From assembly GCA_910574345.1 (NCBI GenBank), contig CAJSZV010000039.1, positions 1 to 32,372 of the forward strand: a stretch of 32,372 bases of DNA. The letters run 5' to 3'. The position numbers and the translations under genes were made by a program. The notes beneath the pieces were generated by a model. The model had not been told where the DNA came from. It worked only from the letters and a program-made list of their open reading frames with translations, and searched no databases. Position 1 is the first letter of the stretch; the number at the start of each line of letters is the position of its first letter. Origin of the DNA: Clostridiaceae bacterium. GTDB taxonomy: Bacteria > Bacillota > Clostridia > Lachnospirales > Lachnospiraceae. Below are positions 13,025 through 31,436 of the stretch, one piece after another.

Positions 13025-13105
13025 GCTGTTGACGCAGCTTAATCTGAGTGCAAAAAGGACAAGCCTCTTTATATATATTTTGCAGATTTATTATAGCAGA
13101 GGCTT
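13017..13105 (+). promoter_or_regulatory. Two hairpins in the gap between mobC-like gene and primase
   Basis: CAGATTAGGCTG and CAGCTTAATCTG (13017-13046) form a 12-bp stem with one G-T pair and a six-base loop. AAGCCTCT (13061) and AGAGGCTT (13098) form a second 8-bp stem followed by only TT. They may attenuate or terminate read-through from int, or act in replication. The T run is weak. Confidence 0.45.
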
Positions 13106-13136
13106 TTCCGGCTGAAAAGGAGGGAAAGCTGTAAAA

Positions 13137-13784
13137 TTGAATATTTTTTCAGAGGTAAAAGAACATCTGACGGCAAGGCAGGCGGCAGAATACTATGGTT
13201 TGCGGGTTAAAAGGAATGGCTTAGCCTGCTGTCCGTTCCATGATGATAAACACCCAAGCATGAAGATTGATAAAAATTACCACTGCTTTGCCTGTGGTGT
13301 CGGCGGAGATGTGGTTGATTATGTTTCGCGTATGTTTGGGCTGTCACAGTATGATGCGGCACTAAAGCTGATAGAGGATTTTTCTCTGCCTGCTGATGCG
13401 AAGGGGAATGTAGAGTTAAGCGTGCGGGAAAAAGAGCACATCCGCAGGGAAAAGGCAGAGCGTGAAAGGGTAACACGCATTCAGGAACGATTTGAAAAAT
13501 GGTGCAGTCAGACGATTGATATGTTGAGGAATTGTATCTTGGAGATTGACGATGTAAATCGTTTTCTCATTGGTAAACCGCCTGACATTATTTTTTCAGA
13601 GGATTATGCACAGATGCTTCATGCAGAGCCGATTATTAATTACTGGCTGAATATTTTGTGTATGGGAGATGTTTCAGAGAGGCAGGAGCTGTTTTTGAAG
13701 GACAGAAAGAAGGTGGAGGAAATTGCAGGAACAGTCTGCACAGGCAGAAAACGAATTATGGAATGCAGTCGGGGAAGCGCTTGA
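13137..13784 (+). CDS. CHC2 zinc-finger DNA primase-like protein
   Basis: The 215-residue protein has the CHC2 zinc ribbon of DnaG-type primases: C32 and H35 in CCPFHDDKHPS and C50 and C53 in YHCFACGVGGD, followed by VVDYVSRMFG. It lacks the TOPRIM catalytic domain, so it probably only recognises template for a separate enzyme. Such small CHC2 proteins sit before VirE-type ATPases in Firmicutes mobile elements, as here. The start is a TTG at 13137 with AAAGGAGGG about 12 bases upstream; no ATG gives the full zinc domain. Its 3' end overlaps the next frame. Confidence 0.85.
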   Translation: MNIFSEVKEHLTARQAAEYYGLRVKRNGLACCPFHDDKHPSMKIDKNYHCFACGVGGDVVDYVSRMFGLSQYDAALKLIEDFSLPADAKGNVELSVREKEHIRREKAERERVTRIQERFEKWCSQTIDMLRNCILEIDDVNRFLIGKPPDIIFSEDYAQMLHAEPIINYWLNILCMGDVSERQELFLKDRKKVEEIAGTVCTGRKRIMECSRGSA

Positions 13785-15081: not shown

Positions 15082-15113
15082 ATGGAAGTATGCTTTAAAC
15101 TCTTTTTTATCCG

Positions 15114-15206
15114 GTTTACAGGGCGCGTTTACATTTTTGTAAACGGTGAGTTTACAGCGGGATATAGGAAAATCAAGGCTTTCCGCTGTTTGTAAACGGT
15201 GTAAAC
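15114..15206. repeat. GTTTACA/TGTAAAC repeat cluster, candidate centromere or origin
   Basis: Six copies lie within 93 bases: GTTTACA at 15114, 15127 and 15150, and TGTAAAC at 15138, 15191 and 15200. The pairs 15127/15138 and 15150/15191 are inverted. The cluster is directly upstream of the ParM-like gene, where type II partition loci place parC. Confidence 0.75.
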
Positions 15207-15260
15207 CGAAAAAACTGAAAACACAATAATAAGATTAACAATAATAGGAGGGCATTTATT

Positions 15261-16184
15261 ATGCAGAAATATAACAACACAAAAATCATTATCGGACTGG
15301 ATCATGGTTATGGCAATATAAAAACAACGCACAGGGTATTTAGGACAGGCGTGGAATGCTTTGAGGAAGAACCGATAGTCAGTGTGAATTACATCAAGTA
15401 TAAGGATAAGCATTATGTGATTGGGGAAAATCACTTAATTTATCAGGGGAACAAGACAGATTCGCAGGACTTTTTTATTCTCACATTGGCAGGATTGGCG
15501 GAAGAACTGAAATTCCGAGGTCTGCATGAGGCAAAAGTGGTACTGGCAGTTGGACTTCCGCTTGCTTGGGCGAAAAGTCAGGCGGCAGATTTTAAGAAAT
15601 ATCTTATGCAGGAGCAGGAATTATTTTTCTCATTCCGTAAAGAAAGCTACAGAGTGCATTTGTGCGGAGTGGAAGTGTTTCCGCAGGGATTTGCGGCGGT
15701 ATGCAACGCCGGTTCAATGAAAGGGTTTAACATGATAGCGGATATCGGGAATGGCACGATGAACGTGATGCAGATTGTGGACGGCAGACCATTAGAGAAA
15801 AGTCTTGTGACGGACAAATTCGGTGTTTCGATCTGTATGAAGGAAATACAAAAAGAACTGTCAAAATCAGCAGGGGAAAGCATACCGGAGGTTCTGATCG
15901 AGCCGATGCTGATAAACGGATTACAGGGCAGAGCTGATGCAGCTGCAAAGGTTGTAGAGCGCATTGCCGCAGGATACGCAGAGAATATTTCAAAGCGCTT
16001 AATTGATTATGGATATAAAGAAAATCTGGTGCATCTCTATGTGATTGGCGGCGGTGGCTGCCTGCTCAGACATTACAGTGATATTGCCTCAAAAGGGAAT
16101 GTGACTTTTATTGAGGACATCTGTGCAAATGCAAAAGGATATGAATACCTTGCAATGCAGAAACAGCGCAGACAGGCAGTGTAG
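15261..16184 (+). CDS. ParM/StbA-like actin-family segregation ATPase
   Basis: This 307-residue protein has the actin-fold nucleotide motifs in order: phosphate-1 loop GLDHGYGNIKT near residue 12, phosphate-2 loop MIADIGNGTMNVM near 160, and adenosine loop VIGGGGCLL near 265. ParM proteins polymerise to push plasmid copies apart, held to DNA by ParR at parC. The TGTAAAC repeat cluster lies immediately upstream and a small charged protein follows 16 bases downstream, fitting a parC-parM-parR order. ATAGGAGGGC precedes the ATG. Its presence suggests a circular, perhaps multicopy stage of the element, which is inference. Confidence 0.85.
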   Translation: MQKYNNTKIIIGLDHGYGNIKTTHRVFRTGVECFEEEPIVSVNYIKYKDKHYVIGENHLIYQGNKTDSQDFFILTLAGLAEELKFRGLHEAKVVLAVGLPLAWAKSQAADFKKYLMQEQELFFSFRKESYRVHLCGVEVFPQGFAAVCNAGSMKGFNMIADIGNGTMNVMQIVDGRPLEKSLVTDKFGVSICMKEIQKELSKSAGESIPEVLIEPMLINGLQGRADAAAKVVERIAAGYAENISKRLIDYGYKENLVHLYVIGGGGCLLRHYSDIASKGNVTFIEDICANAKGYEYLAMQKQRRQAV

Positions 16185-16199
16185 AAATGGGGTTATGGA

Positions 16200-16646
16200 A
16201 TGAGAAAGGCTTATAAATGCAGCAACATAAAATTCTGCATGGAAGATGAAAACCAGCGCAGGACTTGGGAATATTTGCAGGGCATTACACGAAAAGATGG
16301 TTCTTATGGGAAGATACTTTCTGATGCGTTTGTGGAGATTCTTGACAGAGGAATACAGGAGGTGAATAAGACGGAGAATGACTCTGCTATTTTAAAAGAG
16401 CAGACTGTTGATGCTATTGAGGAAGTGCTGGACAGGGCATTGGAACAAAAATTCTATGATATGCTCCAAGAATTGAAGGGAGTTTTTACAGACCAAATCA
16501 GTAGAGGCTTTAAAGAATATGTTCCTGCTTCTTGTTCCAGTGCAGACGATCCTATGCACAAAAGCGATGCGGAGGGGATGGAGCAGATGCAGGAGCCGGA
16601 ATTGTCCGAGGATATGATGGCGTTTGCATTTGCAATGGGCGAATAG
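16200..16646 (+). CDS. Small charged helical protein, possible ParR-like partner of ParM
   Basis: I do not recognise the 148-residue product by family. The N-terminal part (AYKCSNIKFCMEDENQRRTW) is basic and mixed. The middle is helical, with acidic heptad-like stretches such as VDAIEEVLDRALEQKFYDML, and the C-terminus is acidic and ends AFAFAMGE. It starts 16 bases after parM and shares its orientation, the usual place for ParR, whose acidic C-terminal tail binds the actin filament. The tail here would fit that role. The assignment rests on position and composition only. Confidence 0.6.
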   Translation: MRKAYKCSNIKFCMEDENQRRTWEYLQGITRKDGSYGKILSDAFVEILDRGIQEVNKTENDSAILKEQTVDAIEEVLDRALEQKFYDMLQELKGVFTDQISRGFKEYVPASCSSADDPMHKSDAEGMEQMQEPELSEDMMAFAFAMGE

Positions 16647-16966
16647 GCGGTTCCAAATTTTTATATTCGGTACTCATTTCCGAAAAGGAAGCCTATGGAA
16701 CGGTACCGAAAAGCTTAAATTCGGTACTGTTGCCCAAAACGAATGACGGCTGTATTTTGCCGGAATGAGCAGTCTGTGGGAATGTTTTTCCGGCAGACCA
16801 CGGATGTCGTCAGGCAGACGGTGTTTGCCAGCGGCAAACACTACCCTCGGAGAGCGCCTTACTTCTGATGCGTATGTGTCAGAAGTAATAAAGCGTTACT
16901 TTTGACAAAAGTAACAAAACCGTAGTTAGCTTTAATACATAAAAATATGAGAAAGAGAGTGATGCG
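16647..16966. other. 320-base non-coding region before the relaxase, candidate oriT
   Basis: No credible gene is present. The left part holds ATTCGGTACT twice (16665 and 16719) and the palindrome CGGTACCG at 16701. The right part holds three perfect inverted repeats: GTGTTTGCC-AGC-GGCAAACAC (16821-16841), TTACTTCTGA/TCAGAAGTAA (16859-16888) and GTTACTTTT-GAC-AAAAGTAAC (16895-16915). MobV/Pre relaxases nick at a hairpin site just upstream of their own gene, so the last two stems are the best oriT candidates. The nick position cannot be given. Confidence 0.65.
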
Positions 16967-18331
16967 TTGGCGGCAAAAACAATTTCTTTTCCAAAGGGGA
17001 AGGGGCATCTTACACATAATAACAGGGATTTTATCTGCAATAATGTGGTGCCGGAAAGAACTGCTTGGAACCGGATTTACATACAGGAACCGTTAAAGGA
17101 TGCTTATGAGAAATGCTTCGGACAATCGCTTCGGGATTATAATGCGGCGCAGAAGCGCAAGGACAGGCAGAAAGACGATTATCTGAAAGAGATAGAGAAC
17201 TCCGGAAACAAGGAAAAGACATTTTATGAAAACATCGTACAGATAGGCAAAAAGACGGATACTCCGGTCACAGATGAAAACGGGGTGATGACAGAGGAGG
17301 CAAAAGCGGCGATAGAGGTCTTAGACCGCTATGCAAAGACCTTTCAAGAGCGTAATCCGAATCTGTATTTATTTAATTGTGTGATGCATTTGGACGAGGC
17401 GACACCGCATCTGCATATAGATTATATTCCTGTGGCGCATGGATATAAAAACGGCATGAAGACACGCAACAGCCTGACAAAAGCATTCCAGCAGATGGGA
17501 TTTGCAAAGGCGGTCAGCAGAAAGCAGAATGAAACGGTTGCGTGGCAGGAACGGGAGAGGGAGTATCTGACAGAGCTGTGCAGGGAGCAGAGGATTGAAA
17601 TAGAAGTCCTCGGTGTACAGCGGGATAACCTGTCACTGCCGGAATATAAGGCGGCAATGCGTGAGGTGGAGCAGTTGGAACAGCAGGCGGCAGTTCTGGA
17701 TAAGCGGAATGAGGCTCTTGAACAGCAGAATGATGATCTTGCGCAGAAAACAGCAGAGTTTCGTGGACAGGTGCTAGAAATGGAGACACAAAACAATGAG
17801 CTGGTTTTACAGGCACAGAAACTCACAGAGCAGATTGAGGAAGCAGAGGAAAAAGAAAAAGCGGCGAAGGAGGTTCTTGCGAAACATGATTTGAGGGCGG
17901 AAACATTTAAATTGATTTCAAAGGAAGTGGCGGCAGAAACAAAAAATATGAAAAGCGTTGCTGTTCCAGTGACAAACCTTTTCGGCAGTGAGGAATATGT
18001 CAAAGTAAAGAAAAGTGACTGGAATAAAATATTGGATGCTTTCAGCAAGGCAGTATCAAGAAATCATCTCTTGGAAAAGTATGAGAAGAAAATTTCCGGT
18101 CTGGAGAAAAAGATAGCTGTGCTTACAGATCAGGTTGAAAAACTAAAGAGGTTTGTAGCATCAAGAGGACTTGGAGAGGCGTTTGTGGAATTTATAAAAT
18201 CGCTTGCGCCAAAGACGATGAAACAGAAACTGGAGGAGGCAAAAGAGGATGCCGTGGTACATAACCAGCAAAGAAAGCGTAGCCAGCAGGACGTAGTAAG
18301 AAAAAATAATCAGTGGCAGCAGGAAATGTAA
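16967..18331 (+). CDS. MobV/Pre-type relaxase (TnpZ-like)
   Basis: The 454-residue protein nicks oriT to start DNA mobilisation. The N-terminal Mob_Pre domain has the metal and catalytic signature H141-L-D-E-A-T-P-H148-L-H150, the HxDExxPHxH pattern of MobV enzymes, in NCVMHLDEATPHLHIDYIP. Residues about 215-300 and 350-400 are coiled-coil, rich in Glu and Gln, typical of this family's C-terminal half. Translation starts at TTG 16967 with a weak GAAAGAGAG site; the MAAKTISF start is standard for relatives. TnpV follows, the same pairing as in Tn4451-type elements, but here transposition is by a tyrosine recombinase and not the large serine TnpX. Confidence 0.92.
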   Translation: MAAKTISFPKGKGHLTHNNRDFICNNVVPERTAWNRIYIQEPLKDAYEKCFGQSLRDYNAAQKRKDRQKDDYLKEIENSGNKEKTFYENIVQIGKKTDTPVTDENGVMTEEAKAAIEVLDRYAKTFQERNPNLYLFNCVMHLDEATPHLHIDYIPVAHGYKNGMKTRNSLTKAFQQMGFAKAVSRKQNETVAWQEREREYLTELCREQRIEIEVLGVQRDNLSLPEYKAAMREVEQLEQQAAVLDKRNEALEQQNDDLAQKTAEFRGQVLEMETQNNELVLQAQKLTEQIEEAEEKEKAAKEVLAKHDLRAETFKLISKEVAAETKNMKSVAVPVTNLFGSEEYVKVKKSDWNKILDAFSKAVSRNHLLEKYEKKISGLEKKIAVLTDQVEKLKRFVASRGLGEAFVEFIKSLAPKTMKQKLEEAKEDAVVHNQQRKRSQQDVVRKNNQWQQEM

Positions 18332-18792: not shown

Positions 18793-18821
18793 TTGCTATT
18801 GTTCCAAGGTTGGAATATACT
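18793..18821 (+). promoter_or_regulatory. Promoter of the restriction-defence operon with a palindromic spacer
   Basis: TTGCTA (18793-18798) and TATACT (18816-18821) are 17 bases apart. The palindrome TTCCAA-GG-TTGGAA occupies 18802-18815, ending directly at the -10. A regulator bound there would sit between the two promoter boxes, as MerR-type proteins do. The first gene downstream encodes a small MerR-like HTH protein. Confidence 0.75.
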
Positions 18822-18857: not shown

Positions 18858-19049
18858 ATGGAATACTTAACAGTAAAAGAAATAGCTGAAAAGTGGGGTA
18901 TTTCCGGAAGAAGAATAAACACATTGTGTAATGAAGGCAGAATAGCAGGTGCAGAGAAAAAGGGGCTTATGTGGCTAATACCAAAGGATGCCGAAAAACC
19001 TGCTGATTTGAGATATGGCAAAAAACAAATGACTGAGGAGAACAAATAA
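18858..19049 (+). CDS. Small MerR/excisionase-like HTH protein, likely operon controller
   Basis: The 63-residue protein is mostly one winged helix-turn-helix: YLTVKEIAEKWGISGRRINT, then LCNEGRIAGAEKKGLMWLIP. It has a TGGAGG site 9 bases before ATG. Its stop TAA is directly followed by the hsdM ATG with no gap, so it is produced with the methyltransferase. Small HTH proteins of this kind precede some type I restriction operons. By analogy with C proteins, it may time expression through the palindrome in the promoter spacer. The regulatory role is inference. It has no domain besides the HTH. Confidence 0.75.
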   Translation: MEYLTVKEIAEKWGISGRRINTLCNEGRIAGAEKKGLMWLIPKDAEKPADLRYGKKQMTEENK

Positions 19050-21152
19050 ATGGCGAATTTAGCAATTGATGTGATGTGGGATGATAGCCCTGTGGATGTT
19101 ACAGCAGAGGCAAACTTTATATGGAGTATTGCGAACAAATTAAGAGGTTCTTATATGCCCGATAAATATGGTGATGTTATTATTCCTATGACGATTATCA
19201 GACGTTTTGAATGTGCTTTGCTTGATGATGAAGTGAAAAGAAAAGATGTTATCGATACTTTTAAACAGAATCCGAACTACCCAGAAAAAGCATTATTCAG
19301 AAAATCAGGTTTTCAATTTTATAATACCAGTGATTATACGTTACAGGAACTTTGCAACGATGCTGACCATGTGGCAGCGAATTTTAGGGCATATATAGCA
19401 GGATTTTCTGCAAATGTGCAGGACATTTTGAAAGAGCTGGAAATGGAGCAGCATATCAACAAGATGGACAAGGATGGATGCCTGTATTCGGTAGTCAAAG
19501 CGTTTTCAGAACTGGATTTAAGCCCAAGAACTTTTGACAGTATCAAAATGGGATACATATTTGAAAATCTCATAGGCAGATTCTATCAAAATGTGGATGC
19601 CGGACAGTTTTATACAGGCAGGGATATTATTAAATTGTTGGTATCGCTTTTGATTTCGGAGGGATGCGATGACATTTTTGATGCGGGGAAGATAATAACA
19701 GTCTGTGATCAGGCATGTGGTACAGGTGGTATGCTTTCAACAGCATACAGCTATCTCAAGCATTATAATCCTTCTGCGGATGTGCGGTTGTTTGGACAGG
19801 AGATGATGGGGCAGTCTTATGCAGTAGGTCTGGCGGAGATGCTGATTAAAGGACAGAATGCCGAGAACTTTCGCCATGCGGATACCTTAAAAGAGGACTG
19901 TTTTGAAGGTACAAAGATGCGGTTCTTAATTGAGAATCCACCTTTTGGTACACCGTGGTCTGGAAAGGACGCAAAGGCAGGACAGGAAGATGCTGTAAAT
20001 GCTGAATATGCAAAAAGATTTCATGGACGGTGGGGCGCAGGTCTTCCAAGCGGCGGTGATTCACAGCTTTTATTTTTGCAGTCAGCAGTTGCGAAGCTGG
20101 ATGAGCAACAAGGAAGGGCAGCCATTATTGAAAATGGTTCTCCGCTTTTTACAGGCGGTACAGCATCAGGAGAATCACAGGTAAGAAGATGGCTATTGGA
20201 GAATGATTTGATTGAGGCGATAATCCAAATGCCGACAGAACTGTTTTACAATACAGGTATCAGCACTTATGTGTGGATATTGTCAAAAAACAAAAGAAAA
20301 GAGAGAATAGGAAGGATTCAGCTTATAGATGCTTCTGGTATCTGCCATAAACTGCGCAAGCCTCTGGGCAACAAGAAAAATGAATTTAGTCCGGAGGACA
20401 GAAAGAAGATAACAGAGTTATATGCTAATTTTACAGAAAATGAGTACAGTAAAATTTATGATAATACGGAGTTTGTTTACAAAGAGTATGCAGTAATGCA
20501 GCCTTTACAGAGAAGCTATTCGATTACAGAGGATAGTATACAGGCGATGTTGCGGCAGGGTACACTAAAAAATCTGTGGGATGAAATAAAAGTAGCACAG
20601 TTGGAGGAATTGGGAACGGTGATTACAGGGAAAGAACAGAAAACGCTTGATAATTTTTATAAGAACAAGCCAGTGTATGATGCAATCCTTGATGCACTGC
20701 AATCATCGGTATCCAATCAAAAATGGCTTTCTCCTGATGAATTTATGCCAGTGATAACGGAAATTCTTTCAGATGTAGCAGATAATAAGACAATACAGAA
20801 GATTGCAGATGGTCTTTCAGTTATGGACAAGGAAGCGGTAATTCAGAAGGATAAGAGAGGGAACATTCTGTTTGATAAGTCTACGAAAGATACTGAAATC
20901 GTAAAGGTAGAAGAAGATATTGATTCTTATATGGAAAGGGAAGTGCTGCCTCATATCCCAGATGCAGTAGCATTTTGGGAAGAGAATTTAGAGGCAAAGA
21001 ACCCTGTTATCAGAACAGGAGCGGAGATTCCCTTTACAAGATATTTTTATAAGTATCAGCAGCCGACACCAAGCGAGGAACTGGAAGCCAGATTTGGCAA
21101 ATTGGAACTGTCAGTCAGTGAACGTGTGGCTAAGTTGTTTGGGAGAAAATAA
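19050..21152 (+). CDS. hsdM: Type I restriction-modification methyltransferase subunit
   Basis: HsdM transfers a methyl group from AdoMet to adenine N6 within the sequence chosen by HsdS. The AdoMet-binding motif is DQACGTGGM at residues 220-228 and the catalytic motif is NPPF at 296-299, with the family's N-terminal helical domain (FIWSIANKLRGSYMPDKYG) before them. At 700 residues it is longer than the 500-residue E. coli type. The extra C-terminal 200 residues are charged and helical and probably contact HsdS. The gene abuts the HTH controller and is followed at once by hsdS, so stoichiometry is set by one transcript. Confidence 0.95.
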   Translation: MANLAIDVMWDDSPVDVTAEANFIWSIANKLRGSYMPDKYGDVIIPMTIIRRFECALLDDEVKRKDVIDTFKQNPNYPEKALFRKSGFQFYNTSDYTLQELCNDADHVAANFRAYIAGFSANVQDILKELEMEQHINKMDKDGCLYSVVKAFSELDLSPRTFDSIKMGYIFENLIGRFYQNVDAGQFYTGRDIIKLLVSLLISEGCDDIFDAGKIITVCDQACGTGGMLSTAYSYLKHYNPSADVRLFGQEMMGQSYAVGLAEMLIKGQNAENFRHADTLKEDCFEGTKMRFLIENPPFGTPWSGKDAKAGQEDAVNAEYAKRFHGRWGAGLPSGGDSQLLFLQSAVAKLDEQQGRAAIIENGSPLFTGGTASGESQVRRWLLENDLIEAIIQMPTELFYNTGISTYVWILSKNKRKERIGRIQLIDASGICHKLRKPLGNKKNEFSPEDRKKITELYANFTENEYSKIYDNTEFVYKEYAVMQPLQRSYSITEDSIQAMLRQGTLKNLWDEIKVAQLEELGTVITGKEQKTLDNFYKNKPVYDAILDALQSSVSNQKWLSPDEFMPVITEILSDVADNKTIQKIADGLSVMDKEAVIQKDKRGNILFDKSTKDTEIVKVEEDIDSYMEREVLPHIPDAVAFWEENLEAKNPVIRTGAEIPFTRYFYKYQQPTPSEELEARFGKLELSVSERVAKLFGRK

Positions 21153-21153
21153 T

Positions 21154-22356
21154 ATGGAAGAAATGAAAGATAGTGGGATCGAATGGGTAGAAAAGTGTCC
21201 TGCCCATTGGAAAATAATGGCGAATAAGCATATTATGAAAAAAGTGAAAAACATTAAAGTAATATATGAGAATGAGGATATATTGTCATTAACCATGAAA
21301 GGTGTAATAGTAAGAGATCTTGAGGCGGGTGGCAAGATGCCAACGTCCTTTGATGGATATCAGATATTATATCCCAATAATTTGCTTATGTGTCTATTTG
21401 ACTATGATGTAACGCCTAGATGTATTGGTCTAATAAAAAAATATGGTCTTTCTAGTCCGGCATATAGCCAATTTGAAATGAAAAACCAAAATTATGAGGG
21501 CTACTATTATTACTATTATTTAATGATTGATAACACGAAAGCATTGCTTCATCTTGCAAAAAATTTAAGACATTCTTTTACAGAAGAGCAATTGGGACTT
21601 ATTCATGCACCAGTACCACCAATCAAGGAACAAATAGCTATTGCGAATTTACTAGATGAAAAATGTTCAGAAATAGACAGGCTGTTTGCGGATATTCAAT
21701 CAGAGATTGACTCATTAGAGGAATATAGAATGTCTATTATAAATGAAGTGTTGAGGTGCGGAATAAGTGGGAAAAGTAAACACAAGGAAGTGAGATTTAA
21801 ATATATTGCAACTGTAAAAGCTAATTTAGTACCACCAACATTTTTTTTAGAATATCCTCAAGTATCACCAGAAAACATAGCTAAGAATACAGGAAAATTA
21901 TTATCGTATTCGACTGTAGAGGATTCTGGCATAATCAGTGGCAATCATTTGTTTTATAAAGGGCAAATTATATATTCTGAAATTCGCCCAAACCTTAATA
22001 AAGCAATAATAGCCCCGTTTGATGGATTGTGTAGTGCTGATATGTACCCAATAGAAGCAAAAATCAATAGTAAATATTTATTATATGCAATGCTATCAAG
22101 GCATTTTGTTGAGCAAGTCACGCTTATAATGCAAGACAGAGTAAAAATGCCTAAGATTAATCAGGATGAACTTGGAAATATAGGGGTTTATATTGCGCCG
22201 GATATAGAACAAAAAGAGATTGTATTATATCTTGACAAAAAATGTGCAGAAATAGATTCTATAATCGAAACAAAAAAGGAGCAATTAACGGTTCTTGGTG
22301 AATATAAAAAAGCAATTATTTATGAATATGTAACAGGGAAGAAAGAGGTGATTTGA
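21154..22356 (+). CDS. hsdS: Type I restriction-modification specificity subunit
   Basis: I place the start at ATG 21154, one base after the hsdM stop; a longer frame would invade hsdM. The 400-residue product begins MKDSGIEWVEKCPAHW, the usual HsdS opening. Two target-recognition domains lie at about 15-150 and 215-345. Each is followed by a conserved helical spacer: PPIKEQIAIANLLDEKCSEID and, later, EQKEIVLYLDKKCAEID (parallel LDEKCSEID and LDKKCAEID motifs). A full pair implies a bipartite DNA target. The sequence recognised cannot be deduced. No second hsdS copy or invertase is seen, so there is no sign of shuffling. Confidence 0.93.
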   Translation: MEEMKDSGIEWVEKCPAHWKIMANKHIMKKVKNIKVIYENEDILSLTMKGVIVRDLEAGGKMPTSFDGYQILYPNNLLMCLFDYDVTPRCIGLIKKYGLSSPAYSQFEMKNQNYEGYYYYYYLMIDNTKALLHLAKNLRHSFTEEQLGLIHAPVPPIKEQIAIANLLDEKCSEIDRLFADIQSEIDSLEEYRMSIINEVLRCGISGKSKHKEVRFKYIATVKANLVPPTFFLEYPQVSPENIAKNTGKLLSYSTVEDSGIISGNHLFYKGQIIYSEIRPNLNKAIIAPFDGLCSADMYPIEAKINSKYLLYAMLSRHFVEQVTLIMQDRVKMPKINQDELGNIGVYIAPDIEQKEIVLYLDKKCAEIDSIIETKKEQLTVLGEYKKAIIYEYVTGKKEVI

Positions 22357-23375
22357 TGTCGTTTACAAGAGTTTCAGAAGAAGCTGAGGATGTCTTAATG
22401 GAAATATTAGAGCATGAACACGATAGCGATTACTGGAAAAATCGTTTCGATAAATTATCTGATCGTGATGATATTGTGTTGAGAGGATGCTTTAAAGAAT
22501 TACGAGAAGGTGGACTTATCAATGCCGAATATGCAGATAACTATCCTTATCTGATAACTATATTAAAAGATGGTTATTTATACGAAAAGCATTTGGAAGA
22601 GGAGAAGGATGCTGAATTAACCCCGTTTGAAAGAGAACTTAATGAACTTCTGAAACGAGCAAGAAATATCAAAGCACCAATTAATACTGCACCACCCAAT
22701 ATGAGTATGGACGAATATAATAAGCCCAGTGAGATTTGGATGAATGATGTGCAGATTTTTTACGACAATTATCTTAAAGACCATGCTTTGGGCGATAGGA
22801 TAAAGACATTATTATTCCATAGGGGATTGGGTGCGTATGGGGAATTAGTGGCAGCACTTACAAGCGTGAGCAAGGACAGGAAATTTATTGATAAAATAAA
22901 CGGAGCACAGGAAGTTTTAGTGCCTAAATATCAGGCAAAAGCAATACCAGAATATGATGTGTTCATATCCCATGCAAATAGGGATAAGGAAGAACTGGTA
23001 GAAGATTTATATAAATCTTTAGATAAGTTGGGAATACAAATATTTTATGATAAAGAATCCATTGAATGGGGAGATAATTGGAAAGATAAGATATTGAAGG
23101 GTGTTAAAAAAGCCGAGTTTGCTATTATTGTCATATCAGAAAACTTTTTTGGTAGAGAATGGACAGAAAGAGAACTTAAAGAACTATTATCGAGGCAGAA
23201 CAGGAATGGACAGAAATTAATACTTCCCATACTCAAAAATATAGCACTGGAGCAATTACAACAGAAATATCCATCAGTGGCAGATATTCAGGCAATAGAT
23301 TCTAAAAATTATTCCACTGATGAAATAGCTTTAATGTTTGCGAAACAATTGATAAAAAGATTGAAGATCAAATAA
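22356..23375 (+). CDS. TIR-domain protein nested in the type I restriction operon
   Basis: The start ATG 22356 overlaps the hsdS stop by one base (TGATG), with AAAGAGGTGA upstream. The 339-residue protein has an N-terminal part (1-90) that looks like a winged helix (LRGCFKELREGGLINAEYAD), a linker and helical middle (90-195), and a C-terminal TIR domain from about 199: YDVFISHANRDKEELVEDLY, IFYDKES, and WTERELKELL. E271 in WTERE is the likely catalytic Glu of TIR NADases. Bacterial TIR effectors such as those of Thoeris and TIR-STING cleave NAD to kill infected cells. No ThsA-like partner is adjacent. The position between hsdS and hsdR matches prrC in the prr locus, suggesting a guard that is silenced by the restriction complex; this is inference. 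Confidence 0.85.
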   Translation: MSFTRVSEEAEDVLMEILEHEHDSDYWKNRFDKLSDRDDIVLRGCFKELREGGLINAEYADNYPYLITILKDGYLYEKHLEEEKDAELTPFERELNELLKRARNIKAPINTAPPNMSMDEYNKPSEIWMNDVQIFYDNYLKDHALGDRIKTLLFHRGLGAYGELVAALTSVSKDRKFIDKINGAQEVLVPKYQAKAIPEYDVFISHANRDKEELVEDLYKSLDKLGIQIFYDKESIEWGDNWKDKILKGVKKAEFAIIVISENFFGREWTERELKELLSRQNRNGQKLILPILKNIALEQLQQKYPSVADIQAIDSKNYSTDEIALMFAKQLIKRLKIK

Positions 23376-23399
23376 AAGTGTTTGAGGAGGAAACGGTAA

Positions 23400-26300
23400 A
23401 TGCAAAATGATGTGTTATCCGAAAAAGAATACCAGAATTACATATTAGAAAGACTTTCTGAAAATGGGTATGAGATAAAGCCGTCTGCTGGTTATGACCG
23501 CTTTTTTGCAATAGACAAGGAGGCACTTTTTCGGTTTCTGAATACAACACAGCCTGATGAAATAGATGCGCTCAGAAAAGTATACAAGACAGATTTGGAA
23601 AACACGATTATCGGCGTTATCAATGCGGAAGAAACGAAGACAAGAGGAAGCAGACTGGATGTATTAAAACATGGGGTAGAAATTGCAAACCATAAGCTGG
23701 AGCTTATGTATACAAAACCGGCAACTACATTCAACCCTGTGCTTAATAAGCTGTATGAGCAGAATATTTTTTCCGTATCCGAAGAAGTCTGGGCAAGTGA
23801 CAAGGAAAGGATAGACCTTGTAATCTTTTTAAATGGTCTGGCAATCATAACATTTGAATTGAAATGCAATGCAGCGGGGCAGTCTTATCAGGATGCAATT
23901 TATCAGTACCGCACACAGCGCGACCCAAAGACAAGGCTTTTCAGGCGGAAAGCAGGGGCGCTGGTGGATTTTGCAATGGATTTGGAACAGGTCTATATGA
24001 CGACAAAGCTAGACGGAGCATCAACGTTCTTCCTGCCCTTTAACATGGGAAAGGGAGAGGGGATTGATACAGGAGCAGGGAATCCGGTTTATGAAGATAA
24101 ATACAGCGTATCTTATATGTGGGAAGATATTCTGCAAAAAGACACGCTGATTGAGATACTTGGCAAATTTATGTTCATTGAAGTCAAGGAAAAGAAAGAC
24201 CCTGTGACAGATAAAATGAAACGCTCTGAAACAGTTATTTTTCCAAGATATCATCAGTTGGATGTCATCAGGAAGACGTTGGCAGAAGTTGTGGAAACAG
24301 GTTCCAGCCAAAATTATCTGATACAGCACTCCGCTGGTTCGGGCAAGACCAATTCCATTGCATGGTTGGCGCACAGACTGGCATCTCTGCATGATAAAGA
24401 AAATAAAATCATATTTGATAATATTATTATTTGTACGGACAGGGTAGTTGTGGACAGGCAGCTTCAGCAGGCAGTAATGGGAATTGAACATAAAACAGGG
24501 ATGATTCGGGTTATGGATGAAAAGTGCAATTCCAATGACCTTGCGCTTGCGATTCAGGGAAATACTAAAATTATCGCCACTACAATACAAAAGTTTCCGT
24601 ATATTGTTGACAGCGTAAAAGGGCTGAAAAATAAGAAATTTGCAGTTATTATAGACGAGGCGCATTCGTCCACGGCAGGTAAGAATATGGCAGCGGTGAC
24701 AATGACACTCGGCAATGGAGATGAATTGGTATATGATACGGAAGATATGATTGTTGACCAGATTTCCAAACAGGGAAAACAGGCGAATGTTTCTATGTTT
24801 GCTTTTACAGCAACGCCAAAGCCTACAACAATACAGCTTTTCGGGCGGGAGAATACAAAGGGACAGAAAGAGGCATTTCATTTTTATACGATGAAACAGG
24901 CAATAGAAGAAGGCTTTATTCTTGATGTGTTGGATAATTATCTAAACTATGAAACTTATTACAAGCTGAACAAGGAAATTGAGGAAGATCCTACCTTGCA
25001 GACAAATGAAGCCAAAAGGCAGATTGCCCGGTTTATTCAGCTTCATGAAGTAAATATAGCGCAGAGGGTAGAGATTATTATTGAACATTTCAGAACCTCG
25101 GTCATGCAGGAACTCGGCGGACACGCAAAGGCTATGGTTGTAACAGAATCAAGGGCAGGGGCGGTCAAATACAGACAGGCTTTTGAAGATTATACAAAGA
25201 AGAAAGGCTATACAAATATTCGCGCTTTGGTGGCGTTCTCCGGTAAGGTGACGTTGGAGGATAAAGAATATACAGAAGCGGGAATGAACGGCATATCAGA
25301 GAAAAATCTGCCTGACGAGTTTGACAAAGACGAGTATCAGGTACTTTTGGTTGCAGATAAATACCAGACGGGATTTGATCAGCCGAAACTGTGCGCCATG
25401 TATATCCTGAAAAAGCTACATGGCGTGACTGCGGTACAGACACTTTCCAGACTAAACCGTATCTGCCCGCCTTATGAGAAAAAGACATTTGTGCTGGATT
25501 TTGTCAACAAATATGAGGATATTGTGGCTGCATTTTCCAAATATTACACAAAGACAGTTCTTTCCAATTCAGTTACGCCCCGTGCAATCTATGATATTGA
25601 AGCAAAGATAGACGGATACTTTTTCTTAGATCCTGCCGATGTGGAATCCTTTAATAAAGTATTGTATGAATCGGCACATACGGCAAAAGATAAAAAGCAG
25701 ATGACTTTTTATTTGCAAAAAGCAAAACGTGTAATAGATGGATTTGCAGACGATAAAAGAGGGCAGATCGCATTAGACATCAGGCATTTTATCAGGTTTT
25801 ATGAATTTCTGTTACAGGCTTCCTGCTTTGAGGATGTGGAACTGCACAAGAAATATAATTTCCTCTCCTATTTGATAGCGTATATCAGGATTAATCATGG
25901 AGGGGGAGGCTATAATCTTGATAGCATGATTAAAGCATCTGAATTTTTCCAGAAAAAGGGAGGGGAACACAAGAAAAGCAATATGACCGCAAGCTCTGTG
26001 ATGAAACTGCCCACAGCATATGATATTGTATTGACTCCTGCAAAGGAAGAGCGCCTTTCACAGATTATCAGAGAGATAAACAGCAGGACAGGCAGACAAT
26101 ATGACAATGATGTTGCAATCAAAGCAGCATTGCAGATTCGGGATATTATGAAAAAGTCCGAGGAACTTAAAACCAGCGCAAAGAATAATTCGGAACAGGA
26201 TTTTGAATTTGCGTATTTTGACCATGTGGATGATGCGCTGATAGATGGATTGGAGCAAAATCAGGATTTCTTTACCCTGCTTTTGCAGAATGATGAAATT

Positions 26301-26453
26301 AAACATGAAGTGCTGGGGCTGTTTTTGAGTGATACATATCATAGTTTGCGAAATGGGGAAGATGTGGGAAGTGGGATTGTATATCAATATGAAAATCTTA
26401 AACCGATGATGGTTGCGGAAGAACCTGTGGATTATGGCAGAAAGGATAAATAA
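23400..26453 (+). CDS. hsdR: Type I restriction endonuclease/translocase subunit
   Basis: The 1017-residue subunit cuts DNA after ATP-driven translocation. The nuclease motif is D139 followed by E153-L-K155 in FELKCNAAGQ. The helicase has Walker A HSAGSGKT at 310-317, DEAH at 419-422, FTATPKPTT, and motif VI within QTLSRLNRICPP. A helical C-terminal domain that binds HsdM completes it. All active-site motifs are intact. GAGGAGG precedes the ATG, 24 bases after the TIR gene, so it should be on the same transcript but has its own strong ribosome site. Confidence 0.95.
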   Translation: MQNDVLSEKEYQNYILERLSENGYEIKPSAGYDRFFAIDKEALFRFLNTTQPDEIDALRKVYKTDLENTIIGVINAEETKTRGSRLDVLKHGVEIANHKLELMYTKPATTFNPVLNKLYEQNIFSVSEEVWASDKERIDLVIFLNGLAIITFELKCNAAGQSYQDAIYQYRTQRDPKTRLFRRKAGALVDFAMDLEQVYMTTKLDGASTFFLPFNMGKGEGIDTGAGNPVYEDKYSVSYMWEDILQKDTLIEILGKFMFIEVKEKKDPVTDKMKRSETVIFPRYHQLDVIRKTLAEVVETGSSQNYLIQHSAGSGKTNSIAWLAHRLASLHDKENKIIFDNIIICTDRVVVDRQLQQAVMGIEHKTGMIRVMDEKCNSNDLALAIQGNTKIIATTIQKFPYIVDSVKGLKNKKFAVIIDEAHSSTAGKNMAAVTMTLGNGDELVYDTEDMIVDQISKQGKQANVSMFAFTATPKPTTIQLFGRENTKGQKEAFHFYTMKQAIEEGFILDVLDNYLNYETYYKLNKEIEEDPTLQTNEAKRQIARFIQLHEVNIAQRVEIIIEHFRTSVMQELGGHAKAMVVTESRAGAVKYRQAFEDYTKKKGYTNIRALVAFSGKVTLEDKEYTEAGMNGISEKNLPDEFDKDEYQVLLVADKYQTGFDQPKLCAMYILKKLHGVTAVQTLSRLNRICPPYEKKTFVLDFVNKYEDIVAAFSKYYTKTVLSNSVTPRAIYDIEAKIDGYFFLDPADVESFNKVLYESAHTAKDKKQMTFYLQKAKRVIDGFADDKRGQIALDIRHFIRFYEFLLQASCFEDVELHKKYNFLSYLIAYIRINHGGGGYNLDSMIKASEFFQKKGGEHKKSNMTASSVMKLPTAYDIVLTPAKEERLSQIIREINSRTGRQYDNDVAIKAALQIRDIMKKSEELKTSAKNNSEQDFEFAYFDHVDDALIDGLEQNQDFFTLLLQNDEIKHEVLGLFLSDTYHSLRNGEDVGSGIVYQYENLKPMMVAEEPVDYGRKDK

Positions 26454-26482
26454 GGCATGAGGTGTCAAATGGAGGTGCAAAA

Positions 26483-27391
26483 GTGAATATTTCATTAGAG
26501 AATACAGATTTTTTAAATTCGTTTGATTTGTTATTGGAGACAACAATTGATAAATATCAACGAGATAGATTAAATTTATATGCATTAAAAATCAATGCAA
26601 ATGAATTTAATTATACTAATTTGCAAGAACAGTTGGTAGATCCAATGATAGATTATGCTGTTTCTCGTGAAATAAAAAAACAATATTCTAATAGACCAGG
26701 TGCATTATCTAAAAAAGCAAGAGAAAAGTTTAAAGAATATTCGAAGAATGATGGAGAGTTAGGTGAATTATTGCTGTTTTGCTTCTTGGAAGCGCAACTT
26801 AAGGCACCCAAAATATTAAGCAAATTAGAACTTAAAACATCAACAAAATTGTATGTTAATGGAGCAGATGGAGTGCATTTTCTGGAACTTGAAGATGGAA
26901 ATTACCAATTGATTTTTGGCGAATCAAAGATGTATAAAGAGATAAAAACAGCTTTTGATAAAGCACTAAAATCATTATATGAGTTTAAAAATGAAATTAA
27001 TGAAAATGGAGATTCAAAAAGTGGCATAAATTATGAAAGATCGTTAATTAGTGACAATCTTTCTAAAGAAACATTTAACGAAGATGAGCAAAAATTTTTA
27101 AGGGCTTTAATATATCCATGCGAAAATCAAAGTTTCTATGTTGATGATGCGTTTGGCATATTTGTGGGATTTGAAATAGAGGTGAGTGAAGACGAAAGAT
27201 GTTTGCCCAATTCTGAGTTTAGAAAATTAATACATAGAAGAATAATTGAGGAAGTAAAAAATTGTATTGAGGATATTGGCAAAAAAATAAGGAGTTATGG
27301 TTTGCAAGGACATGATTTTTATGTGTATGTAGTTCCTTTCACAGATATTGAAAGCAGCAGAAAAGAAATACTAAGGGAAGTGATATCATGA
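26483..27391 (+). CDS. hamA: Hachiman defence protein HamA (DUF1837 nuclease)
   Basis: I place the start at GTG 26483, seven bases after GGAGGTG; the frame could extend to 26462. The 302-residue product matches DUF1837: GELGELLLFCFLEAQL, then GADGVHFLE and LIFGESKMY. D129, E147 and K149 (numbered from the GTG) form a PD-(D/E)xK nuclease triad, with E92 or E95 as a further acidic residue. In Hachiman, HamA is the nuclease held inactive by the HamB helicase until abnormal DNA is sensed, after which it degrades DNA in the cell. The gene overlaps hamB by four bases (ATGA). The DNA is very AT-rich, more than hsdR, suggesting a separate origin from the restriction genes. Confidence 0.88.
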   Translation: MNISLENTDFLNSFDLLLETTIDKYQRDRLNLYALKINANEFNYTNLQEQLVDPMIDYAVSREIKKQYSNRPGALSKKAREKFKEYSKNDGELGELLLFCFLEAQLKAPKILSKLELKTSTKLYVNGADGVHFLELEDGNYQLIFGESKMYKEIKTAFDKALKSLYEFKNEINENGDSKSGINYERSLISDNLSKETFNEDEQKFLRALIYPCENQSFYVDDAFGIFVGFEIEVSEDERCLPNSEFRKLIHRRIIEEVKNCIEDIGKKIRSYGLQGHDFYVYVVPFTDIESSRKEILREVIS

Positions 27392-29937
27392 GATTTATAC
27401 AGGAATTAGTCGATTGTGCGTTGAAAGATAGATATTTACAAAAACTCATTGAGAAAGCGGAGCATATTTATGGAGTAGACTTTTTGAATAAATCTAAGGA
27501 CTCTGCACTTACAGAAAAAGAATATCTCGATATTATGAGATTTTCTGATATATTGAGTAGGGATTCAGACTGTGAAGGAAGAAACCTTGCATATAAAATT
27601 ATCAGTATTTTATATCCTTTTTATGCAGAGGATGAACATTATAAATTTATATCTAATAGTGTAATGACCAAATTGGGGAATTTTCCATCATTAAGTTTAA
27701 TAATGAAAACTGATAATCCTAACCGTTATGATACACCAGAAATATTATTAGATAAACAGCTAAAAGAAACTTATCAAAAGGTTCCGGGAACGGAAAAGGT
27801 ATTTACAGATGCGCAGTATCGACTGTTTGAGGCGATTAAGGATAGTAATCATTTTAGTTTTTCAGGACCAACTTCTTTTGGAAAGTCATTTATAATGGAT
27901 GCGTTTATAAATTATATTATTGATGAGAGACATGGCGTGGACAATATAATTGTGCTGGTCCCTACACGCGCATTGATTAACCAAGTGTCAAAACGTCTAA
28001 AGGTTGAGATAAAGCACGAGAAGTATAGGGTTATGACACATCCGATTGTGCCAGTGATGTATAGAAGAAATGGTGCAAAATATGTGTTTGTATTTACCCC
28101 AGAAAGAATGATAGCCTATTTGTCTGAAAAAAATAACCCATTAATTAGTTATTTGTTTATTGATGAGGCACAAAAGATTATTGCCAAGAAAGATTCAAGA
28201 GCACCATTGTATTATCAAGCAATATCTTTAGCAGAGAGAAAAAGCATAAAATTGTTTTTTGCATCACCTAATATCCCGAATAGTGACATTTTTCTGAAAT
28301 TATTTGATAAAAGTACAGATGAATGTATGGTAATAAAGGAAGCACCTGTATCGCAAAATAGATTTTTCATTGATTTTGTAGAGCGAAAAGAGAAGATGTT
28401 TACTGAAAGTGGGAAAGAAGATATTTTTGATACTTTTGGGAATTATAATAACTTAAATGAACTGCTGATATGTATTGGAAGTGATAGAAAGAACATAGTG
28501 TACTGCAATAGCGTTGAGGATACAATAAATTTTGCTTTGCTTTTTTCAAAAGTATTAAAAGAAAAAAGAGATTCAAGGATAGATGAGGTAATTAAACTCA
28601 TTCAGGAATATTTACATAAAGATTACTATTTGATTGATTGTTTGAAAAAGGGGGTTGCTTTTCATTTTGGAAAACTTCCACAAAGAATTAGAGAGAAGGT
28701 AGAAACTTTATATGAGCAAAAAGTAATTGATTATATGTTTTGCACCTCAACACTTTTGGAAGGAGTTAATTTGCCAGCTCAAAATATTTTTATTTTAAAC
28801 AATACAATCGGACTTAGGAAATTTACAGATGTAGATTTCTGGAATTTGGCTGGAAGAGCCGGGCGGTTAAGCAAAGAGTTATCAGGAAATATAATTTGTG
28901 TTCGTTTGGATAGTAACAAGTGGAAAGTAAAAGAAAATGATATGGAAATGATCAGAACAAAGGTCATTAAACATGTTTCACCAACAATCTTGAATGGAGA
29001 GGATAATTTTTATAAAAATGTAGAGAATTCTTTGTTAGGGAAACCCTTTACTAAAAAGACTGTAACTAAAGACGAAGCAGAGACTTGGAACCATTACGCA
29101 AATATAGTATATTATCAAGAGATTGCGAAGGCGGATTCTATACTAAAGAGCAATTTTATGAAGAAAAATCATAAGACAGCAAAAAGAGTATTAGAACACA
29201 TCGAAAAAACTAATTTTGTACCAGAGAATATTTTAGAGCAAAGTACGAGTATCAAGCCATTATATCAGAATACAATATGGAATGGGTTGGTGGCGTCAGA
29301 CAAGGCTTTTCCAGAAGAAATAACAACGCAAAACTGCTATGATGTGTTAGTTAAAATGTATAAAATTTATAAATGGAATATTGAAGAATCAAAAGGAAGA
29401 AATCCTTTGATAAGAGATATAGAGCAATTAAAGTATTATGCGGTACTCATGTATACATGGATATCATCAAAGCCTTTAAATATGATAATAGGAAATATGA
29501 TAAATTATTACAGAAGAAAAGGTAGTATTTGGCATAGCAATGAGAATGTTCCTTTTGTTTATACAAACAAAGAACATATTAATTGGGTAATAAATGATTT
29601 AATTGCAGATATTGATAATGCATTAAGATTTAAAATAAAGAATTATTTTTCTAATTATTATTTGCTTGTTTCGGGTAAAAATGGTGTGAAAGCAGCAGGT
29701 GCGGATTGGTCAGAATATTTAGAATACGGAACAACAAATAAGACTATAATTGATTTACAAAATTTAGGCTTTCCAAGACATATCGCTATGCTGGTAAAAG
29801 AAAAATTTGAGGAGGTATTAGTATATGAAGAGGATGGATTGGTGGATATTAACATTGAAAAGTTGTTAGGTTTTCTTCTTGAAGATAATCATAAGCAGGA
29901 ATATCAAGAAATATTAGAAGTAATAGGGATTGATTAG
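27388..29937 (+). CDS. hamB: Hachiman defence helicase HamB
   Basis: The 849-residue protein is a superfamily 2 helicase of the Ski2-like type. Walker A is GPTSFGKS at 160-167, with LVPTRALINQ as motif Ia, IDEAQ at 258-262, STLLEGVNLPA as motif V and AGRAGRL at 488-494 as motif VI. The first 150 residues and the 300-residue C-terminus are helical and lineage-specific. Its start overlaps the hamA stop, and the pair matches the two-gene Hachiman system in which HamB loads on DNA with exposed single strands and releases HamA. All visible motifs are intact. It follows hsdR, so the restriction, TIR and Hachiman genes may form one long transcript. Confidence 0.88.
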   Translation: MRFIQELVDCALKDRYLQKLIEKAEHIYGVDFLNKSKDSALTEKEYLDIMRFSDILSRDSDCEGRNLAYKIISILYPFYAEDEHYKFISNSVMTKLGNFPSLSLIMKTDNPNRYDTPEILLDKQLKETYQKVPGTEKVFTDAQYRLFEAIKDSNHFSFSGPTSFGKSFIMDAFINYIIDERHGVDNIIVLVPTRALINQVSKRLKVEIKHEKYRVMTHPIVPVMYRRNGAKYVFVFTPERMIAYLSEKNNPLISYLFIDEAQKIIAKKDSRAPLYYQAISLAERKSIKLFFASPNIPNSDIFLKLFDKSTDECMVIKEAPVSQNRFFIDFVERKEKMFTESGKEDIFDTFGNYNNLNELLICIGSDRKNIVYCNSVEDTINFALLFSKVLKEKRDSRIDEVIKLIQEYLHKDYYLIDCLKKGVAFHFGKLPQRIREKVETLYEQKVIDYMFCTSTLLEGVNLPAQNIFILNNTIGLRKFTDVDFWNLAGRAGRLSKELSGNIICVRLDSNKWKVKENDMEMIRTKVIKHVSPTILNGEDNFYKNVENSLLGKPFTKKTVTKDEAETWNHYANIVYYQEIAKADSILKSNFMKKNHKTAKRVLEHIEKTNFVPENILEQSTSIKPLYQNTIWNGLVASDKAFPEEITTQNCYDVLVKMYKIYKWNIEESKGRNPLIRDIEQLKYYAVLMYTWISSKPLNMIIGNMINYYRRKGSIWHSNENVPFVYTNKEHINWVINDLIADIDNALRFKIKNYFSNYYLLVSGKNGVKAAGADWSEYLEYGTTNKTIIDLQNLGFPRHIAMLVKEKFEEVLVYEEDGLVDINIEKLLGFLLEDNHKQEYQEILEVIGID

Positions 29938-30059
29938 GAGAGGCAGTGATAACAAAACATACAAGAAGTCGTGATAACTCGCTTTGTAAGTCTTTTTATA
30001 AATGATGAGGTATTTCTGTATATGTTTAAGGACGTGTTGATAGAAAGCAGGTGAAAAGT

Positions 30060-31436
30060 ATGCCGGAACATCAAACAATAGAATATAAAGAATCGTGGCA
30101 TGATGAATTTTTAGAGTGGATCTGCGGATATGCAAACGCATACGGCGGAACACTTTATATAGGAAAAAATGATGGTGGAGAGGTTGTTGGACTCAATGAT
30201 AAAGATAGAAAAAGGTTATTGGAAGCCATTCCCAATAAAATTACAGATACAATGGGAATTGTAGCGGATGTTAATCTGCTATACAATGGGGAATTGCAAT
30301 ATATTGAAATTATTGTAGATAAGTATCCTTCGCTTATCAGTTATCATGGTAAATATTTTTATCGTTCTGGCAGCACAATGAGAACGATAACAGGAAAAGA
30401 ACTGGATAAAGCAATCTTAAAATCGCAGGGCAGAACATGGGATGGTATGCCGATTCCGAAGCTGAAAGTGACAGATTTGAGAAGAGAGGCAATTGATTTA
30501 CTGAAAGAAAAGGCGATAAGAAGAGGAAGGCTGACGGAGGAAGAAACAAGGGTTGATGATACAATATTGATGGAAAATCTTCATTTATTTGATGAAGAAG
30601 GTTATCTGATAAGAGCCGCAATGCTGGCGTTTTATAAAGATCCGGAGAAATGGGTGACGGGTTCTTATATCAAGATTGGTTATTTTGGCGACTCTGATTC
30701 AGATTTGAAATATCAGGACGAGATACATGGCTCTCTGATTGAACAGATTGATAAAGCTGTTGACTTGGCTTATACGAAATATTTGAAAGCACTGATTTAT
30801 TATGATGGGATTCAGAGGATTGAGCAGTTTATGTTTCCGCAGGATGCATTCCGTGAGATATTGCTGAATGCTGTGGTTCACAAGGATTATAGCGCCTGCA
30901 ACCCGATTCAGATTAGTGTATACGAAGATAAAATATATATTTGGAACGATGGTGAGATGCCGTCTGAGTTGAACTCAACAGAGAAACTGTTTGAAAAGCA
31001 TTCTTCCAAGCCATATAATCCTAAGTTGGCAAATGTTTTCTTTAAAAGTGGTATGATAGAGGCATGGGGCAGAGGTTTTGACAAAATCAAGGAGGCTTGT
31101 GCAAAGTACAATGGACGCCTGCCGGAATACAATATCAGCGCATCTGGAATTATGGTGCTTTGTAAGGCGTGTGATAAGTATTTGGAGTTGTTGAATGATG
31201 AAATACATCCTATTCAAAGTGACCAAGATCATGACCAAGATGGTCATGATGTGGTCATGATGATTTTGGATTTTTGTAAAGAAGCAAGATCCATACCGGA
31301 AATTATGGAGAAATTTGGATTTGACAGTCGGACAAGCTTTAGAAGAAAATATTTAAATACATTAGTAAAAGAAGGAAGATTAAAAATGACCTTGCCGGAT
31401 AAGCCCAAAAGTAAAAATCAAAAATATTATTCATAA
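30060..31436 (+). CDS. AlbA_2/Schlafen-like ATP-binding protein (COG2865 type)
   Basis: ATG 30060 follows AGGTGAAAAGT; a GTG at 30051 is possible. The 458-residue protein has an N-terminal AlbA_2 (Schlafen-like) domain with TIEYKESWHDEFLEWICGYA and YFYRSGSTMR, then a GHKL-type ATPase: AFREILLNAVVHKDYS as the N box, IWNDGEMP as G1 and EAWGRGFDKI. The C-terminus is a winged helix after the acidic linker SDQDHDQDGHDVVMM. It is often annotated as a transcriptional regulator or RecG-like, although it lacks helicase motifs. It follows Hachiman after 122 bases. It could regulate the island or be a defence factor; neither is shown. Confidence 0.8.
   Translation: MPEHQTIEYKESWHDEFLEWICGYANAYGGTLYIGKNDGGEVVGLNDKDRKRLLEAIPNKITDTMGIVADVNLLYNGELQYIEIIVDKYPSLISYHGKYFYRSGSTMRTITGKELDKAILKSQGRTWDGMPIPKLKVTDLRREAIDLLKEKAIRRGRLTEEETRVDDTILMENLHLFDEEGYLIRAAMLAFYKDPEKWVTGSYIKIGYFGDSDSDLKYQDEIHGSLIEQIDKAVDLAYTKYLKALIYYDGIQRIEQFMFPQDAFREILLNAVVHKDYSACNPIQISVYEDKIYIWNDGEMPSELNSTEKLFEKHSSKPYNPKLANVFFKSGMIEAWGRGFDKIKEACAKYNGRLPEYNISASGIMVLCKACDKYLELLNDEIHPIQSDQDHDQDGHDVVMMILDFCKEARSIPEIMEKFGFDSRTSFRRKYLNTLVKEGRLKMTLPDKPKSKNQKYYS
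31228..31262. repeat. ATCATGACC/GGTCATGAT repeats inside the AlbA_2 gene
   Basis: ATCATGACC (31228-31236) and GGTCATGAT (31242-31250) form a 9-bp inverted repeat with a five-base centre. A further GGTCATGATG lies at 31253-31262. They encode the acidic linker HDQDGHDVVMM. The same sequence recurs after the stop codon. Confidence 0.7.

Follow-up and report, generated by a model that had tools for sequence, protein, structure and literature searches.

What does a gene for a TIR protein do in the middle of a type I restriction operon? The question is raised by a stretch of 32,372 nucleotides (the window; contig CAJSZV010000039.1 of assembly GCA_910574345.1, from a Clostridiaceae bacterium of the Lachnospiraceae), which carries such an operon at 18858 to 26453 on the + strand. 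Read directly from the sequence, its genes follow in the order HTH, hsdM, hsdS, TIR, and hsdR and are spaced by −1 to +24 bases, which confirms the order and tight spacing given in an initial annotation of this DNA. The TIR gene holds the hsdS-hsdR position in which prrC lies in the EcoprrI type I locus, and like prrC it is an effector gene embedded in a restriction operon of type I. PrrC itself combines an ABC-ATPase with an anticodon nuclease, and the initial annotation proposed that the TIR protein is a guard of the same kind, kept silent by the restriction complex HsdMSR. However, no PrrC-type ABC-ATPase or anticodon nuclease domain was seen in the window protein, for which Pfam at E 0.01 gives only TIR families. 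The reading that we prefer, with a probability of about one half, is that the gene encodes an embedded NADase that is latent by itself, has an SpbK-like layout, and forms a second layer of defense between hsdS and hsdR.

Recurrence and Selection of the Embedded TIR Gene

Searches with the TIR protein in genomes of the class (391) and of the family (397) gave 28 matches besides the window, four of which (L014, L015, L016, and L029 in our locus numbering) are near relatives that share its middle domain and TIR domain at high identity. Hsd genes flank three of these four (L014, L016, and L029, not L015) versus none of the 24 others (Fisher p = 0.0012, uncorrected for kinship), as judged by tblastn with ten restriction-type queries at E 1e-4 over flanks of up to 1.5 kb, some ended by contig ends, such that divergent systems could be missed. 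Among the 24 others, L011 adjoins a cytosine methyltransferase, and L023, which matches through the winged helix alone, adjoins BrxL. A genome collection was also scanned with an alignment of the near relatives, which gave 13 loci; with duplicates merged (L014 = L035, L015 = L039, L029 = L042) and L047 set aside, 13 loci besides the window were left. In nine of them (L035, L036, L037, L038, L042, L044, L045, L046, and L034/L016) the TIR gene lies between hsdS and hsdR, and the idea that the arrangement is unique to this strain is rejected. Rather, it recurs across several lineages and with two families of type I system.

The TIR proteins of L035 to L038 are 92–95% identical to that of the window and represent close kin, while those outside this close clade are 61–73% identical, and we count about six independent type I lineages with an embedded TIR gene. 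The most distant is L045, where HsdM and HsdR (30 and 24% identical to those of the window where alignable) belong to a distant type I family in which Pfam confirms HsdM, HsdS, and HsdR, and where the TIR protein, 64% identical over residues 92–338, occupies the same slot. An SIR2_2 protein of 1149 amino acids directly follows this operon (L045:11927-15376). In L046 an extra gene of 454 amino acids stands between TIR and hsdR, and the TIR protein keeps the winged helix and gains a region between its middle and TIR domains. In L044, hsdM and hsdR (L044:4626-11852) match in several pieces though the TIR gene is open, reflecting either decay or draft errors. The copies outside the slot are of several kinds. 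In L041 a type III pair precedes the start of the TIR gene by 73 bases, and of this pair Mod matches MTase_III at 432 bits and Res only weakly (47 bits); an inverted repeat between the res and TIR genes (L041:7918-7992, seen by eye), either a terminator or an operator, makes their shared expression less likely. No restriction gene is directly adjacent in L039 or L040, although in the latter a cytosine methyltransferase gene ends 1.6 kb upstream, nor in L043, which lies at a contig start with the upstream gene out of view and a KAP NTPase downstream.

The middle domain was also traced separately. A profile of it found two further genomes among the 391, and in both, as judged by eye, a TIR-like protein contains or follows the match; in L047 (8001-8849) it is joined to a different, non-TIR tail that lacks a Pfam match. 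Scans of viral contigs with three queries confirmed no relative, and in plasmids and phages no site reached 80% query coverage, with the middle domain unmatched altogether. At three plasmid loci no restriction genes were among the listed features, in feature lists that are incomplete.

The TIR gene is inherited with the enzyme rather than with its target specificity. Compared with the window, TIR, HsdM, and HsdR of its four closest relatives among the loci are 92–98% identical, versus 32–65% for HsdS, which shows that TIR stays while target specificity changes. Ratios of nonsynonymous to synonymous substitution (dN/dS) over four pairs are 0.065–0.094 for TIR, 0.043–0.079 for hsdM, and 0.050–0.091 for hsdR, and in the close clade the TIR gene is intact and under purifying selection. 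An HsdR tree of 26 rows, from which L044 is absent as its hsdM and hsdR are read in several pieces, has TIR in 8/11 rows of the clade of the window and 0/15 outside it, with four of the eight having entered through the TIR search. By the HsdR survey alone, with the window left out, the figures are 3/5 versus 0/19 (p = 0.005, uncorrected for kinship). In the TIR tree, three of the 13 inner branches are starred. The association of TIR with type I restriction is therefore real and selected, but optional.

A Cargo Slot Between hsdS and hsdR

The HsdR survey covered 397 genomes of the family and gave 32 matches, 25 of them with a readable upstream side; the seven dropped from the count (L053, L054, L071, L074, L075, and two without a locus) had an upstream side that was cut or broken or had no locus. 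On the upstream side of the slot, hsdS was identified visually by the motifs at its end and start; for L068 no such gene was seen. The slot is empty in 14 of the 25, holds TIR in four (window included), and holds other genes in seven, comprising three DUF1016 nucleases, one DUF4238 protein, and three proteins with no Pfam name. Slot names for L066, L068, and L063 come from Pfam, and DUF1016 was assigned by eye in L073. The three nameless genes (L050, L061, and L072; 208, 211, and 337 amino acids, no Pfam match) are candidate embedded defense genes in their own right. Hence the hsdS-hsdR gap is a general cargo slot.

Published examples agree with this. DarTG2 is reported to lie between hsdS and hsdR, at a site called a potential recombination hotspot (PMC12255303), PrrC is described as "embedded within a Type IC locus" (PMC12707154), and TgvAB is embedded in a type I locus, in an account that also mentions RloF (PMC11411939). 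According to the same account, TgvAB protection was kept with a restriction-dead HsdR, and tgvAB alone gave 10- to 100-fold less protection than the whole cluster (PMC11411939). Like the TIR gene, DarTG2 and TgvAB are defense genes inside a type I operon, but they represent other enzyme classes and, as described, are two-gene systems.

Domains and Active Site of the TIR Protein

The TIR gene (22356..23375, + strand) encodes 339 amino acids from its ATG start, and its product belongs to the TIR family by its Pfam TIR_2 match (78 bits against a cut-off of 28). In AlphaFold2 models, and in numbering from the ATG, it has a winged helix (residues ~1–70), a helical middle domain (~88–181), a linker (~184–197), and a TIR domain (~199–338). 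Confidence is high for the middle domain, low for the linker, and low to moderate for the TIR domain, and the predicted template modeling score (pTM) of 0.39 for the whole protein leaves the domain arrangement open. The modeled layout appears similar to that of SpbK of Bacillus subtilis, which belongs to ICEBs1. SpbK is described as a single protein with a helical N-terminal domain, a flexible linker, and a C-terminal TIR NADase (PMC12847820). The likeness, which is to the described layout only, lies in the helical N-terminus, the low-confidence linker, and the C-terminal TIR domain, while the window protein differs by its added winged helix and its restriction-operon setting.

By sequence, the closest solved relative is AbTIR (E 6.8e-32), an NAD hydrolase for which S140, R151, D167, W204, E208, and R215 are reported as needed, as is R187 of TcpC, the equivalent of R151 (PMC11374754). 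AbTIR S140, D167, W204, E208, and R215 correspond to S206, D233, W270, E274, and R281 here, all of them present (in numbering from an alternative TTG start), while E217 stands in the place of R151 and I259 in that of V193. The WxxxE glutamate and most of the other needed residues are therefore in place, with the one exception of R151. The glutamate named as catalytic in the initial annotation, E271, was the wrong residue, its AbTIR counterpart being N206. It is the final E of WTERE (E273 by the ATG, E274 by the TTG; codon 23172..23174, + strand) that aligns with E208 and is the predicted catalytic glutamate. We consider the protein a probable NAD-destroying suicide enzyme.

The protein shares its TIR domain with AbTIR and with ThsB of Thoeris, and matches in PADLOC and the PDB fall on the TIR region only, with the N-terminal part unmatched. 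The best PADLOC score is to a candidate, PDC-S66 (149.5 bits), which is alike in the TIR part only (model positions 138–277 of 282), whereas the N-terminal 189 residues differ and are unmatched.

The initial annotation had also suggested that the winged helix and the helical middle could bind HsdMSR. As a required binding part the winged helix is rejected, since it is missing in four of the ten type I-embedded copies (L042, L044, L045, and L034/L016) and is kept in three copies (L039, L040, and L041) that have no adjacent type I gene. Winged helices of this kind are also seen elsewhere. They accompany a weak TIR match downstream of a cytosine methyltransferase (L011/L084), and in L084 (5988-11620) the TIR-like protein stands between this methyltransferase and a 910-amino-acid match to the PADLOC candidate PDC-S53; in L023 (1153-3264) one is joined to an AbiTi-like tail, immediately downstream of the BrxL gene of a BREX system; and in L085 and L086 they occur with SEFIR/TIR proteins, where no restriction gene was noticed by eye.

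Organization of the Operon and Its Surroundings

The window operon is a type I restriction-modification operon, as hsdM, hsdS, and hsdR are all open in a single run of genes. It begins with a small HTH_17 regulator of 63 amino acids (18858..19049, + strand; Pfam HTH_17) that has relatives in L035 to L038, followed without a gap by hsdM (19050..21152, + strand; type I methyltransferase, 700 amino acids; PADLOC MTase_I 751 bits; Pfam HsdM_N and N6_Mtase) and, after 1 base, by the specificity gene hsdS (21154..22356, + strand; Pfam Methylase_S; PADLOC Specificity_I), for which we consider the ATG at 21154 a likelier start than the TTG at 21094 of the open reading frame list. The TIR ATG (22356) and the hsdS stop share one base (TGATG), the alternative TIR start being a TTG at 22353, and 24 bases separate TIR from hsdR (23400..26453, + strand; restriction and translocase subunit, 1017 amino acids; Pfam HSDR_N and SWI2_SNF2/ResIII). 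The NCBIfam hsdR model scores this HsdR at 195.7 bits, under its cut-off of 284.55. The translations contain NPPF in HsdM and DEAH in HsdR, which we take to be the motifs expected of such proteins.

A likely promoter of the operon (TTGCTA, a 17-base spacer, and TATACT; 18793..18821, + strand) is conserved in the aligned close loci, with TTGCTA in four of five (TTGTTA in L035) and TATACT or TATAAT in all five. Within its spacer lies the inverted repeat TTCCAAGGTTGGAA (18802..18815, either strand), whose arms TTCCA and TGGAA are kept in 5/5 aligned loci and which is a candidate operator that the 63-residue HTH protein may bind. At the hsdS-TIR junction a Shine-Dalgarno-like AGAGGTG in the end of hsdS precedes the TGATG stop/start (22344..22358, + strand), and such a stretch within the hsdS end is present at eight of the ten other junctions (L035 to L038, L042, L044, L046, and L034). 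The exceptions are L045, where it sits 3′ of the hsdS stop, and L041, where the junction, which follows res, is different. Translation of TIR is thus probably coupled to that of hsdS.

The operon follows a set of mobile island genes at 11590-18331 that comprises an integrase (11590-12699), a CHC2 zinc-finger protein, a VapE-like protein, an actin-like protein, and a Mob_Pre relaxase (16967-18331), and a GMP synthase-like gene further upstream (7858-9150) marks a possible insertion neighborhood. Hachiman genes hamA and hamB (26462-29937; PADLOC HamB 1054 bits) begin 8 bases after hsdR; they are also present in L035 and were not seen by tblastn in L036 to L038, with only 1.9 kb after hsdR available in L038. 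The next gene (30051-31436) encodes an SLFN_AlbA_2/HATPase_c_4 protein, an 89% relative of which adjoins a different TIR gene in L019.

A Possible Second Layer or Guard of Restriction

According to the reading that we prefer, the TIR protein would be expressed together with the restriction enzyme from one operon, probably through coupled translation, and would be latent on its own, without HsdMSR. In favor of this reading are the recurrence of the gene in the slot, the purifying selection on it, the mostly conserved active site, the predicted domain layout, and the other cargo of the slot, including the published DarTG2 and TgvAB. The trigger would be the sensing of phage that escaped restriction, whereupon the N-terminal helical domain would cluster the TIR domains and NAD would be destroyed, as described for SpbK, with abortive infection as the outcome. 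Self-latency is suggested by the complete copies in L039 and L040 that have no adjacent restriction gene, and by the genome of L040, Blautia schinkii DSM 10518, which has a complete TIR copy (65% identical) and in whose draft neither HSDR_N nor Methylase_S gave a match at E 0.001. HsdMSR is probably not needed to silence this copy, as a complete TIR gene is present where no HsdR or HsdS is detected, and the dependence of the TIR protein on HsdMSR is probably not absolute. Several points weigh against this reading. HSDR_N scores the HsdR of the window itself at only 50 bits, and the search of the Blautia schinkii genome may therefore have overlooked a divergent HsdR. This genome moreover has four N6_Mtase matches, the best at 46 bits and over the cut-off (182 for HsdM of the window); it is also a draft, and the copy in it may be silent because it is not expressed. 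Furthermore, the replacement of the needed R151 by E217 means that activity is not certain, a profile search of the N-terminal part against sequences of solved structures gave one match (E 0.21) and no related sensor, and the recurrent linkage to restriction systems points to something beyond a neutral slot.

Under the PrrC-like guard, TIR would be silenced by HsdMSR until anti-restriction proteins of a phage disturbed this complex, which would free TIR to destroy NAD. This proposal of the initial annotation is partly supported. TIR occupies the prrC slot, recurs there, travels with HsdM and HsdR while HsdS changes, is confined in the HsdR tree to the clade of the window, and keeps most of its active-site residues, and the same lineage recurs with the distant type I family of L045 and after the type III system of L041. 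In addition, three of the four genomes with copies outside the slot (L039, L041, and L043) have an HSDR_N match elsewhere, and guarding at a distance is therefore possible for those copies. What did not hold is the need for the winged helix, and the complete copies without type I neighbors, that of Blautia schinkii in particular, speak against silencing by HsdMSR, as do the unrelated genes in the slot and the protection by TgvAB without HsdR restriction. A tailored contact is also hard to reconcile with a single TIR lineage serving two type I families that differ so much in HsdM and HsdR (24–30% identity where alignable). We regard the guard as a possible but less likely reading. A broader version, in which the lineage guards DNA-modification defense in general, appears improbable, in part because the type III case is weak. 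In it the middle domain, alone or together with the winged helix, would sense the state of type I complexes from two distant families as well as of a type III system, and NAD would be destroyed upon their inhibition by phage. If true, it would be the NAD-depleting counterpart of PrrC, and the winged helices beside BrxL (L023) and a cytosine methyltransferase (L011) would extend guarding to BREX and type II systems.

It is quite improbable that the TIR protein is instead a signal maker, producing a cyclic ADP-ribose isomer that turns on a distinct effector in the manner of Thoeris ThsB. W270 aligns with AbTIR W204, which is tied to 2′cADPR production (PMC11374754), and the ThsB model of PADLOC scores the TIR part at 95 bits, but among the eight proteins encoded at 18858 to 31436, to which the search for one was limited, no adjacent ThsA or ThsA-like partner is named, nor do these include a counterpart of the SIR2_2 gene that follows hsdR in L045. 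Just as doubtful is a neutral hitch-hiker, present only through tolerated insertion and free expression at a hot spot. The diverse cargo of the slot and the reported hotspot (PMC12255303) fit this view, whereas the presence of this one kind of TIR protein across about six type I lineages and purifying selection in the close clade do not.

Implications

Genes inside type I operons are already known, namely PrrC, DarTG2, TgvAB, and RloF, while in the open-access literature, preprints being outside its scope, our search found no TIR NADase in the hsdS-hsdR slot. The present locus family represents a natural test of whether slot cargo acts as a guard or as an independent second layer, because members of a single TIR lineage occur with two families of type I system, downstream of a type III system, and on their own. 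For the organism, the embedded TIR gene likely provides the cell with a second line of phage defense.

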